NCBI GenBank assembly: GCA_026391975.1
Contig: JAPLDB010000080.1
Location: forward strand, 1 to 43,681
DNA: 43,681 nucleotides
Reading direction: 5' to 3'
Source of the DNA: Bacteroidota bacterium
GTDB lineage: Bacteria > Bacteroidota > Bacteroidia > AKYH767-A > 2013-40CM-41-45
Below, piece after piece: positions 34,185-40,109 of this stretch. Under the pieces are notes generated by a model that did no database searches, had not been told where the DNA came from, and saw only the letters and a list, made by a program, of their open reading frames with translations. The position numbers and the translations under genes were made by a program. Position 1 is the stretch's first letter; every line of letters starts with the position of its first letter.

Positions 34185-36968
34185 ATGAAATCAAAACTAC
34201 TTCCTGTAATTTTTTTCCTGTCATTTTTAAGTCTCGGGTTTCTATTTTCAAAAAAGGAAAACAGGGCACTCGTCTCTAAAAAAGTGTTTGCAGATGCTGC
34301 CATGTCTGATGAAGGTGATGATGCTGCATCTAGATACCTGTGGGAGATGATGAGACTGGCAGATCCGGCAACGGGAAAAATCCCTGATCACATTAGGGCA
34401 AGAGAATTGGAGTTTGCAAAAGATCTTCCTAGGCTTGTTTCACTGGCGCCATCAAATGCACGGCTGACAGGAAATTTCATTCCCCGTGGTCCATGGAACC
34501 TGGGTGGAAGAACACGAGCACTTGCGATTGACGTTACAAATGAAAATATCGTGTTTGCAGGAAGTGTGAATGGAGGATTATACCGGTCAACGGATGCTGG
34601 GGTAAGCTGGTCAAGGGTATCACCGCTGAATCAGAATCCGGCAATCACATGGATAGAACAGGATAAAAGGCCGGGGCATACTTTAACGTGGTATTATTCT
34701 ACAGGCGAAGGATATGGCACTTCTGCCAGCGCCTCAGGTGCATTTTACCTCGGGAATGGAGTTTATAAATCGAATGACGGAGGCCTTACCTGGAGCCTGC
34801 TTACTTCCACATCATCCGGAACCCCGCAAACCTTCGACAACGTGTGGGATGTTATCTGGAAAGTACGATGCGATATTTCTGATACAACAAACAATACCGT
34901 GTGGGCTTCATGTTATGGACTCGTATATAAAAGCACCAATGGCGGAACTACATGGGGCGCTGAAAGAGGCAACACAGTAACATCGTCTTACTTTACAGAT
35001 GTAGAACTTACCACAACCGGGGCAGTTTACGTAACAGAAAGCAGTGATGGTGCTCAAAAGGGAATATGGAGAAAAGATCCGGTGAATGCCTGGGCCAATA
35101 TTTCACCTCCGGGATGGGACACATCAACATACAACCGTGTTGTGATAGGCATCAATCCATCCAATGAAAATGAAGTTTACTTTCTCGCAGAAACTCCGGG
35201 TTATGGAAAAATGACAACCAATTTTTTAGGTGATGAAGAATGGAACAGTCTGTGGAAATACACTTACATTTCCGGTAACGGAACAGGAGCGGGTGGTGCA
35301 TGGCAGGATTTGTCAATCAATATTCCATACCCCGGATTGCAACTTGGAAATTTTAATTCACAGGGTGGATATGATCTGGTTGTTCGCGTGCATCCGAATG
35401 ATCCGAACATCGTTTACATCGGCGGGACAAATTTATTCAGGTCTACAACGGGTTTTACTGATTCACTTCACACAACAGAAATGGGTGGCTATGATCCGGC
35501 TTCCACGATTCCTTTTTATGCAACCTATCTGAATCATCACCCTGACCAGCACAACATTTGTTTTCTGCCTTCAGATCCGGATGTTATGTATCAATCAAAT
35601 GATGGCGGAGTTTACAAGACTTTAAATGACAGGGATTCCGTTGTTGTATGGCAATCGCTGAACAACGGCTATGTAACCGGGCAATTTTATACAGTGGCTC
35701 TTGATCATGGAACGACAAATGACAATATTGTGATCGGTGGAGTTCAGGATAATGGTACGTGGTTTACAAATTCCCTTTCGCTGACTACACCGTGGGCGCA
35801 GCCGGGTTTTGGCGATGGTTCATTCTGTGCCATTGACAATGGGCACAATTACTATTACATGAGCCGTCAGCAAGGGAAAACCGCAAAAGTTCAGCTGGAT
35901 GCAAATGGAAATGTGCTTGGCTTCCGCAGAATAGATCCGATCGCAGGTTCAGGATATTTATTCATCAATCCATTTATTCTTGATCCGAATAACAATGACG
36001 TGATGTACATGGCTGCAGGAACAAAAATCTTCCGGAATGATTCTCTTTCTCAGATCGCACTTACAGGTGCATGGGATACTATTTCTACAGGATGGTTTCA
36101 ACTGCCCGATACCATTGCACAGGCGGCGACGTCAGTCACAGCACTGGCAGTAGCTCCATCAAATTCATCAGTATTGTATGTTGGTACGAGCAAGCGAAAA
36201 GTTTACCGTGTTAACAATGCAAATACTGCTTCACCGGTGATGACAGACATTACGTCAAATCTTTTTAACGGAGGTGCGAATACATCATGTATTGCAGTAG
36301 ACCCCGCAGATGCCAACAAGGTGATCGTGGTATTTTCCAACTACAATATTTACAGTATTTATTATTCAGTTGATGCAGGAGTCACGTTTACAAAAAGTGC
36401 CGGCAATCTTGAGCTCAACCAGGGAGGCAGTGGTGCTGCACCAAGTATCCGATGGGTGAGTATTGTTCCAACAGCGAATGGCAATGTTTATATAGCAGGA
36501 ACAAGTGTGGGCATTTACGGGACCAATTTGCTGAATGGACTGAATACGGTATGGACAAACCTCTCTCCTAATGAAGTAGGTTATATGGTTGTAGATATGA
36601 TTGATGCGCGGGGGAGTGATGGTTATGTGGTAGCGGGCACGCATGGAGCAGGGGTGTTCAGTGCGAATATTACTGATACGTTGATGACGGGAACTCTTGT
36701 ACTTTCTGAAAATGATTTTGGAATAAGTGTGTATCCGAATCCGGCGGATCAGTTGGCAATGTGCATCCCGATAGCCATCGGGAGGCAGTTTGCAAGAAAT
36801 ACAAAAGCGGAACTCAAAGTTTTTGATTCCACTGGAAAACTAATTTTGAAGCAGCAATTAATTGCCGATTGTCTGCTGCCTACTGCTTTCTGGCCGTCCG
36901 GTGTATATTTTATTTCAGTTTCTGAAGGAGAGAAAAACCATGTGAGGAGATTGGTGGTGCAGCATTGA
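34185..36968 (+). CDS. Secreted VPS10/BNR (Asp-box) propeller protein, T9SS type A cargo
   Basis: A 927-aa secreted protein. It has an N-terminal hydrophobic signal (to about residue 22), a pro-like segment, and then a long propeller region (about 100-830) with repeated Asp-box motifs: STDAGVSW, SNDGGLTW, STNGGTTW, SVDAGVTF. These resemble sortilin/VPS10 or BNR-repeat propellers such as those of glycosidases and photosystem-assembly factors. No sialidase arginine triad or catalytic motif is evident. The C-terminus (about 845-927, YPNPAD ... GVYFISV) is a type A sorting domain. That domain is unusual: it contains an 18-bp palindrome and a 7-nt tandem array within the coding frame, giving an atypical CIPIAIGRQ and LIADCLLPTAFWPSG. 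Confidence 0.87.
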   Translation: MKSKLLPVIFFLSFLSLGFLFSKKENRALVSKKVFADAAMSDEGDDAASRYLWEMMRLADPATGKIPDHIRARELEFAKDLPRLVSLAPSNARLTGNFIPRGPWNLGGRTRALAIDVTNENIVFAGSVNGGLYRSTDAGVSWSRVSPLNQNPAITWIEQDKRPGHTLTWYYSTGEGYGTSASASGAFYLGNGVYKSNDGGLTWSLLTSTSSGTPQTFDNVWDVIWKVRCDISDTTNNTVWASCYGLVYKSTNGGTTWGAERGNTVTSSYFTDVELTTTGAVYVTESSDGAQKGIWRKDPVNAWANISPPGWDTSTYNRVVIGINPSNENEVYFLAETPGYGKMTTNFLGDEEWNSLWKYTYISGNGTGAGGAWQDLSINIPYPGLQLGNFNSQGGYDLVVRVHPNDPNIVYIGGTNLFRSTTGFTDSLHTTEMGGYDPASTIPFYATYLNHHPDQHNICFLPSDPDVMYQSNDGGVYKTLNDRDSVVVWQSLNNGYVTGQFYTVALDHGTTNDNIVIGGVQDNGTWFTNSLSLTTPWAQPGFGDGSFCAIDNGHNYYYMSRQQGKTAKVQLDANGNVLGFRRIDPIAGSGYLFINPFILDPNNNDVMYMAAGTKIFRNDSLSQIALTGAWDTISTGWFQLPDTIAQAATSVTALAVAPSNSSVLYVGTSKRKVYRVNNANTASPVMTDITSNLFNGGANTSCIAVDPADANKVIVVFSNYNIYSIYYSVDAGVTFTKSAGNLELNQGGSGAAPSIRWVSIVPTANGNVYIAGTSVGIYGTNLLNGLNTVWTNLSPNEVGYMVVDMIDARGSDGYVVAGTHGAGVFSANITDTLMTGTLVLSENDFGISVYPNPADQLAMCIPIAIGRQFARNTKAELKVFDSTGKLILKQQLIADCLLPTAFWPSGVYFISVSEGEKNHVRRLVVQH
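36766..36783. repeat. Palindrome inside the sorting-domain coding region
   Basis: TCCCGAT and ATCGGGA (7 bp, perfect) flank the loop AGCC. It is encoded as CIPIAIG, a segment not expected in a T9SS sorting domain. This looks like a small repetitive palindrome that has entered the gene in frame. Confidence 0.6.
36862..36896 (+). repeat. 7-nt array inside the VPS10-like gene
   Basis: Five heptads in a row (TTGCCGA, TTGTCTG, CTGCCTA, CTGCTTT, CTGGCCG) are related to the CTGCCAA array in the ROK gene. They encode the stretch before the GVYF motif of the sorting domain. Confidence 0.55.
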
Positions 36969-36973
36969 TTCTG

Positions 36974-37312
36974 TCAGTACTTGGTAATGGATTCAGGCAC
37001 GTCGTTGATGTAGTAGTAAACCGGCAATCCTTTCGACATTATCAGTTCCTTCTCTTTTAAAACCCCTGGGCTTTCTCCAAGAATGAGAATGGCCTCGCAT
37101 GCATTTATTACAGCAAGAGATATTTCCATGGTGGCTTTGTAACGATCAGTAATGTTTGCTTTCTCCAGCACAGGTATGGCTGCATTCATACCGATAACCG
37201 GAATATGCCCGCGCTCAAGCAAGAGTGCCGCTGCGGCATTCATGGCGTCCAGATTTGATTTGCATTGCTCTTCTGTTGAGGCTGAATAGGGTCCTGCTAC
37301 ACCGATAATCAT
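36974..37312 (-). CDS. DUF4406-like small protein
   Basis: 112 aa from the ATG at 37312; a longer frame from 37348 would include the promoter. It opens with IIGVAGPYS and continues with a HIPVIGMN segment and EAILILGESPG, the layout of DUF4406 proteins, which share a fold with nucleoside 2-deoxyribosyltransferases. The catalytic Glu of the transferases is not obvious. It may bind or cleave a nucleotide, but function is unproven. Its stop is 5 nt from the stop of the convergent cargo gene. It is divergent from the aldehyde dehydrogenase gene. Confidence 0.75.
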   Translation of the reverse strand: MIIGVAGPYSASTEEQCKSNLDAMNAAAALLLERGHIPVIGMNAAIPVLEKANITDRYKATMEISLAVINACEAILILGESPGVLKEKELIMSKGLPVYYYINDVPESITKY

Positions 37313-37329
37313 ATCATTTAATTTGAATA

Positions 37330-37357
37330 CAAAAGTAACAATGCACATTCAATTCAA
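37330..37357 (-). promoter_or_regulatory. Promoter of the DUF4406-like gene
   Basis: On the minus strand TACTTTTG (37337-37330) is an exact -7 match. TTG lies at 37357-37355, spacing 17 nt instead of 19. The leader would be about 12 nt. Confidence 0.55.
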
Positions 37358-39049: not shown

Positions 39050-39475
39050 TTATCGAAGCAACGTAACTGATCCGGCTTTTGGATGTTTGCCGAAACCTTT
39101 GGCGAAAACTTCATAAACATACACTCCGTTTTCAACCGGCTCGTTGTTGTATTTTCCGTTCCAGTGTTCACCCGGATTTGTGGAAGAATAAATTACTTCT
39201 CCCCAGCGATTGTAAATGAGCATTTTGTAATTCTGTATGCCTTCGCCCTTCACTCCGAATGAATCATTGATACCGTCATCGTTAGGCGTAAATGCACTAG
39301 GGATAAAAATACTGGTTGGTGGAATGACTTCAGCATAATTGGATGTGCTGACGATATTATTGTTCCCGCTCTGGTAGGCAGTGATACGGTATACTTTGTT
39401 TGGCAAAATATCCTGTGCCTGAGAGGCAAAGGAAATGGCAAGCAGCATTGCTAATGTAAATGTTCTCATATTCAT
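39050..39475 (-). CDS. Miniature T9SS type B (CHU_C) cargo protein
   Basis: 141 aa from the ATG at 39475 (39469 is also possible; 39493 would lengthen the signal peptide without need). The signal peptide ends near residue 21 (SFASQA). Residues 56-141 are a gliding-motility-associated C-terminal domain: IFIPSAFTPNDDGINDSF, the YNRWGEVIYSS block, W-NGKYNNE and GVYVYEV. Only about 34 residues lie between signal and sorting domain. Type B domains direct proteins through the type IX system to the cell surface. A passenger this short is unusual; it may be a stand-alone surface peptide or a spacer component. Confidence 0.88.
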   Translation of the reverse strand: MNMRTFTLAMLLAISFASQAQDILPNKVYRITAYQSGNNNIVSTSNYAEVIPPTSIFIPSAFTPNDDGINDSFGVKGEGIQNYKMLIYNRWGEVIYSSTNPGEHWNGKYNNEPVENGVYVYEVFAKGFGKHPKAGSVTLLR

Positions 39476-39692: not shown

Positions 39693-40109
39693 ATGCCATA
39701 TCCTGAATATATCTGCACTCCCATGCGTGAAGAACTGGTCGCATCGGGCTTTGAAGAGTTAAAAAGTCCTGATCAGGTTGACCAGGTTATCCCAAACAGC
39801 AAGGGAACAATGCTGCTTGTTTTGAACTCAGTTTGTGGTTGTGCAGCCGGAACAGCCAGACCGGGGGTGCGCATGTCGCTACAAGATGGAAAAAAGCCTG
39901 AAAAGCTGGTTACTGTGTTTGCAGGGCAGGACCTTGAAGCAACCGCTCAGGCCAGAAAATACACCCTTCCTTATCCGCCATCTTCACCTGCAATAGCTTT
40001 GTTTAAAGACGGCAAACTGGTGCATTTTATCGAGCGTCATCACATTGAAGGACGTTCAGCGCAAATGATTGCTGACCACCTGAAGGCGACATACGAAGAG
40101 TTTTGCTGA
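39693..40109 (+). CDS. BrxA/BrxB-family bacilliredoxin
   Basis: A 138-aa cytosolic thioredoxin-fold protein of the YphP/YqiW family. The active site is Cys48-Gly-Cys50 (NSVCGCAAG). The family blocks VTVFAGQD and YPPSSPAIALFKDG follow, and HHIEGRSAQMIADHL closes the fold. In Firmicutes such proteins remove bacillithiol from protein cysteines; some Bacteroidota also use bacillithiol-like thiols, so the same role is possible. A C-terminal cysteine (Cys138) could act as a resolving residue. The stop abuts the rseP stop with no gap. Confidence 0.92.
   Translation: MPYPEYICTPMREELVASGFEELKSPDQVDQVIPNSKGTMLLVLNSVCGCAAGTARPGVRMSLQDGKKPEKLVTVFAGQDLEATAQARKYTLPYPPSSPAIALFKDGKLVHFIERHHIEGRSAQMIADHLKATYEEFC

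Follow-up and report, generated by a model that had tools for sequence, protein, structure and literature searches.

In the literature searched here, cargo of the type IX secretion system (T9SS) carries its own C-terminal signal, and a conserved pair of proteins, one of which is the signal for the other, would depart from that. For type B cargo, the accessible part of one study reports that the C-terminal domain (CTD) together with its shuttle is enough to secrete GFP and to place adhesins (PMC12618676), and a review states, in its accessible part, that about 100 residues are insufficient for secretion and that more than 200 are needed (PMC10202324). PorP-like barrels hold type B proteins, according to the available sections of PMC9143113, and small CTD proteins are known, among them PorA (246 aa) and Fjoh_0547 (112 aa) in the available sections of PMC7712824. 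We have analyzed a short type B gene in a window of 43,681 nucleotides from a Bacteroidota genome, along with its homologues in related genomes. The comparison shows that a single cargo gene has been divided, within a fibronectin type III (fn3) domain, into two conserved genes, the smaller of which carries the sorting domain.

The short gene lies on the reverse strand at 39050-39475 (stop codon included) and encodes 141 aa which, from translation, domain matches and homologues, comprise a signal peptide, an fn3 F-G hairpin and a type B sorting domain, all on the same strand. The predicted Sec signal peptide, residues 1-21 (39413-39475), was read from the sequence and the homologue alignment as MNMRTFTLAMLLAISFASQAQ, with a putative cleavage site assigned by eye. 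The equivalent of fn3 strands F and G, recognised from alignments and from fold comparison of a fused homologue, occupies residues 28-52 (39320-39394), and the sorting domain residues 57-139 (39059-39307). The latter has a fold like that of T9SS substrate CTDs and matches both PF13585, CHU_C (residues 57-139, E 3.5e-19, 69.2 bits against a cut-off of 27) and TIGR04131 (residues 58-139, E 8.9e-16, 57.8 bits against a cut-off of 35). About 35 residues separate the putative signal peptide from the CHU_C match, so that the original prediction of a signal peptide and a type B sorting domain with little between them is borne out. As in other type B cargo, there is an N-terminal Sec signal peptide and a C-terminal sorting domain above cut-off; in place of a passenger of its own the protein has these residues, which amount to fn3 strands F and G only.

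A terminator-like hairpin with a T tail (39026-39000, reverse strand, 10 pairs, z -2.2) lies 3' of the gene, in agreement with the expectation that the gene has its own terminator. No sigma-70-type promoter was found for it, an absence that carries little weight in this phylum. The divergent neighbour on the forward strand (39693-40109), mentioned for context only, encodes a bacilliredoxin of the BrxA/BrxB family (TIGR04191) and accompanies the short gene at 10 of the 11 loci from family f1. Elsewhere in the window are a gene for a BNR/sortilin-like protein of 927 aa with a type A sorting domain (34185-36968, forward strand) and one for a 124-aa protein (36974-37348, reverse strand) with weak matches to DUF4406 and DUF7768, below cut-off. 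The genome of the window has a T9SS, as seen from an SprA_N match in a 2,423-aa frame and from four PorP/SprF genes, all of them outside the window. It contains 18 type B matches, among which only the gene in the window is a short complete frame. A 197-aa frame on contig C44 and a 316-aa frame on contig C168 are both open at the 5' end near a contig edge, and the remaining matches are long frames or 5'-open frames at contig edges. The view that CHU_C domains usually end large proteins thus holds in this genome, where 17 of the 18 matches are other than short complete frames.

The proteins at 80 loci found among genome contigs are nearly all long, and 2 of the 64 that were read are short with a start of their own (L019, which is the same record as G048, and L073). 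The second of these, a 144-aa type B protein from Cryomorphaceae (L073:4001-4372), differs in its linker, shows no evident fn3 strands F and G and, as its sequence reads, is another, independent tag-only protein. A 118-aa frame in G526 was set aside, since a contig end cuts it and its shortness is only apparent.

The short protein is widely conserved. Matches at E <= 1e-25 were found in 37 of 61 related genomes, own genome included, an orthologue is present in all 10 other genomes of the window's family, and orthologues occur in at least 13 families. The search for homologues of similar length in other Bacteroidota therefore succeeded, with stop-to-stop lengths of 140-209 aa among the 55 short frames collected. 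Each of the 29 relatives that were read is short and carries a signal peptide and the same stretch of ~30 residues ahead of the sorting domain; a decayed remnant was to be recognised by homologues that are all long and by decayed sequence upstream, and that test fails. Across 30 aligned homologues the signal peptide is kept and seven passenger residues, Y29, R30, A33, S43, S45, N46 and P52, are invariant. Passenger and sorting domain are equally conserved, with mean pairwise identities of 47% for the hairpin and 50% for the CTD. To judge from these sequences, the short gene is neither a decayed remnant nor an isolated oddity, and orthologues of conserved length without decay support the earlier suggestion that it is a functional, maintained unit. 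The short proteins form one clade in the tree (support 92/79). Because of this, a single ancient split is the simplest history, and the count of 32 split genomes out of 32 given below does not represent 32 independent events; the split probably happened once.

The identity of the conserved residues ahead of the sorting domain can be read from a second gene. At five loci, four of which belong to other families, a gene for a giant PKD-repeat protein comes after the short gene in the same orientation, in one case with a small gene in between. Four of these giants are without a sorting domain in Pfam and NCBIfam, and their C-termini end in the middle of an fn3 domain. A search with the C-terminal tail of another genome's giant detected the giant of the window genome on a different contig from the short gene (C163:10927-16713, 1,929 aa from its ATG). 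This protein has a signal peptide and PKD repeats followed by fn3 domains, the last of which stops after strand E. No type A or type B CTD was found by Pfam and NCBIfam in it or in those four giants. All 30 giant C-termini read at the best loci stop at one point inside the fn3 domain. In a further 20 loci, 11 stop at that point, 8 are fused, and one (G057:C13) runs on and was left unclassified; three giants of family f18 carry a different tail.

The fused relatives continue for ~125-150 residues past the break, with fn3 strands F and G and then CHU_C. When the consensus of 29 fused sequences is aligned with those of 56 giants and 55 short proteins, it equals the giant plus the short protein, with the break in the E-F loop. 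Strands F and G, with which a fibronectin type III domain ends, make up the passenger of the short protein, and the two pieces together equal one domain of the fused relatives, as is expected of a split fn3 domain. The earlier idea that the gene is a remnant of a larger one was right in part: the short gene encodes the C-terminal end of a larger cargo, now detached, but what is left of that cargo survives as a separate conserved gene (on C163 in the window genome), so that the pair is a split gene rather than a product of decay.

Structure models are in accord with this reading. AlphaFold2 modelled a fused homologue (the tail from L094) with a moderate pLDDT of 64.5 and placed strands on either side of the break. 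Complete fn3 domains of known structure align with residues 105-208 of this model (86 residues at 2.2 A, Z 11.5), and the predicted split point falls within this single domain. Pfam did not call the last fn3 domain of the fused fragment, although fold comparison did detect it, and a PDB sequence search with the fused tail gave nothing at E <= 0.01. The model of the short protein (pLDDT 76.1) resembles T9SS substrate CTDs (NucA, Z 8.4; PorZ, 8.3; RemZ, 7.9), a match of fold only, as Streptococcus protease domains score as high or higher.

The distribution of the two pieces was surveyed in 346 genomes of the class, the same draw being used for the short and the giant-tail queries. On the basis of the best match per genome, the giant tail is present at E <= 1e-25 in 53 of them, split in 32 and fused in 21. 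A separate short gene is found in all 32 split genomes and in none of the 21 fused ones, in searches limited to 7 and 11 scored candidates per genome, which may have missed some. The table behind these counts holds the best giant match of each genome plus single second loci (G377, split; G398, a fused paralogue beside a split giant; G042, fused), the lower giant matches in the same genomes being mostly left unclassified. A 33rd short gene, in G407, precedes a giant that is broken by indels and whose tail ends at the same fn3 point. Family f102 contains both states, with G425 split and G493 fused. Among the 42 genomes of the order, 32 have both pieces and 7 have neither (G020, three genomes of f5, two of f3 and one of f2); the discordant genomes, G004 with a short gene but no strong giant and G038 and G040 with a giant only, are all 79-85% complete. 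A profile search of 296 genomes of the phylum with the short alignment (E <= 1e-30, 13 candidates per genome) was of little use for distribution.

The two genes are adjacent in 17 genomes, with the short gene first in all except G581, where the giant is first. The two genes are separate in families f1 and f4, although G006 (f1) has one adjacent and one separate pair. Family f4 also has two CTD-less giant matches and a single short gene in all six genomes checked; the tails of both giant groups were read in three of these six, and where read they are homologous and share the same fn3 end point. At four f4 loci (L138, L139, L140 and L151) LamG-like giants come after the short gene, and their ends resemble, by eye, type A sorting domains. 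Several families have, next to the giant locus, a gene of ~480 aa with a 'YYTLKSRL'-like motif (L253-L267, L271, L272, opposite strand; L142:4698-6146; L275).

Immediately upstream of the group-1 giant, a gene for a small secreted fn3-like protein is present in all 15 loci checked in f1 and f4 (L253-L267, with a further locus at L142:7025-7492) and in the own genome (L201:343-855 on C163, forward strand). In G046 it sits between the short gene and the giant, and the three group-2 giants checked lack it upstream, as do those of G398 and G425. Two members that were searched gave no Pfam or NCBIfam match. The encoded protein is a possible third component.

We consider it likely that the short protein and the giant are a two-gene, split type IX cargo, in which the short protein completes the fn3 domain of the giant and supplies the sorting signal in trans. 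Both proteins would enter the periplasm by Sec, where the F-G hairpin of the short protein would complete the broken fn3 domain of the giant; the resulting joint would be equivalent to the fn3-CHU_C arrangement in which ordinary type B cargo ends. Export of the pair, with the signal given in trans, and its retention at the surface would then fall to SprA together with a PorP/SprF-like shuttle. Physical complementation, piggyback export and the surface location of the pair are what we infer. More speculative, and held only tentatively, is a broader scheme in which the short protein is a reusable small tag that docks on CTD-less giants by completing their fn3 domain, one tag serves the two giants of f4, the upstream fn3-like protein may guard the open domain in the periplasm, and export requires assembly, as it does where strands are complemented in other systems.

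The main competitor of this split-cargo reading, which we regard as rather unlikely, is that the split is old and its halves have diverged, so that the short protein leaves by itself, perhaps to cap a PorP/SprF-like barrel, and the giant remains periplasmic or takes another route. PG1035 offers a parallel, being a type B protein held by PorP-PorE, for which the authors speculate on a PorP cap in the accessible part of their paper (PMC9143113). According to the available text of PMC12618676, secretion needs no more than a type B CTD and its shuttle, so the short protein could be exported on its own; the accessible parts of that study and of the review (PMC10202324) differ on this point, and both leave room for sorting in trans. 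Evolutionary distances also lend this competitor some weight. A partial Mantel test gave no signal of specific co-evolution, with a partial r of 0.20 between the hairpin and the truncated fn3 domain, given the upstream fn3 domains, and of 0.53 between the hairpin and those upstream domains, given the truncated one. However, each half retains its share of one fn3 fold and neither decays faster, the mean pairwise identity of the truncated domain (39%) being set beside 40% and 42% for its two complete neighbours; both pieces are absent together in the 7 of 42 order genomes; and core residues would be expected to lie exposed both on a lone F-G hairpin and on an fn3 domain that lacks these strands.

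The f4 genomes, in which one short gene accompanies two giant matches (6 of 6), raise a further alternative, namely that the short protein acts in sorting as a general adaptor or competitor with many clients beyond the giant, since one adaptor may serve two clients. We think this improbable: the two client groups are homologous with the same fn3 end where read, and an unsystematic look met no other type of client. The related suggestions that the protein competes for or fills the sorting route, or belongs to the attachment complex, account neither for the conserved fn3 F-G strands nor for the matching CTD-less giant. Some assemblies do break these genes, as with the indels in the giant of G407 and in G385, where the last frame is short in the assembly, and the split could be ascribed to a remnant or to an artefact of assembly or frameshift. 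This we hold to be barely credible, because the same break with a separate short frame recurs in 32 genomes, the halves are unlinked in families f1 and f4, and in most adjacent pairs the short gene lies ahead of the giant, an order that a frameshift cannot give; for the group as a whole it is refuted by these observations.

If the split-cargo reading is true, counts of T9SS cargo that rely on the signal miss the giants, the T9SS exports assembled complexes, and there exists a natural split domain that is open to direct tests of sorting in trans. Short 'tag-only' T9SS proteins in annotations likewise gain a concrete partner to look for.

Among described systems, SprB and the other T9SS type B cargo share the sorting domain, and the fused relatives of the pair are ordinary members of this class with fn3-CHU_C ends. 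Unlike them, the pair has its signal and its passenger in two genes, the passenger being without a signal of its own. The PG1035-PorP-PorE complex of P. gingivalis is likewise type B, with PG1035 held at the surface by the PorP barrel; PG1035 is ~50 kDa with a passenger of its own, whereas the short protein has 141 aa and no large passenger, and the accessible part of the paper describes no split-cargo partner (PMC9143113). PorA and Fjoh_0547 are short CTD-bearing proteins like that of the window, the latter compared by description, and PorA, which the available text reports only in Porphyromonas, has a FimH-like N-terminal domain (PMC7712824). The short protein, with ~35 residues before its CTD, has no room for such a domain. 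No precedent for a small, split or trans-acting T9SS signal as a separate protein was found in the open-access literature searched. In the donor-strand complementation of chaperone-usher pili, an incomplete Ig-like fold is completed by a strand of another protein; by analogy, the short protein would donate two fn3 strands and also carries the secretion signal. Engineered fibronectin type III domains that have been cut in two can reportedly reassemble by fragment complementation, whereas the split here is natural, lies in the E-F loop and is tied to a sorting signal. The pair is a variant of T9SS type B cargo and, if sorting in trans is proved, would be a new kind of cargo.
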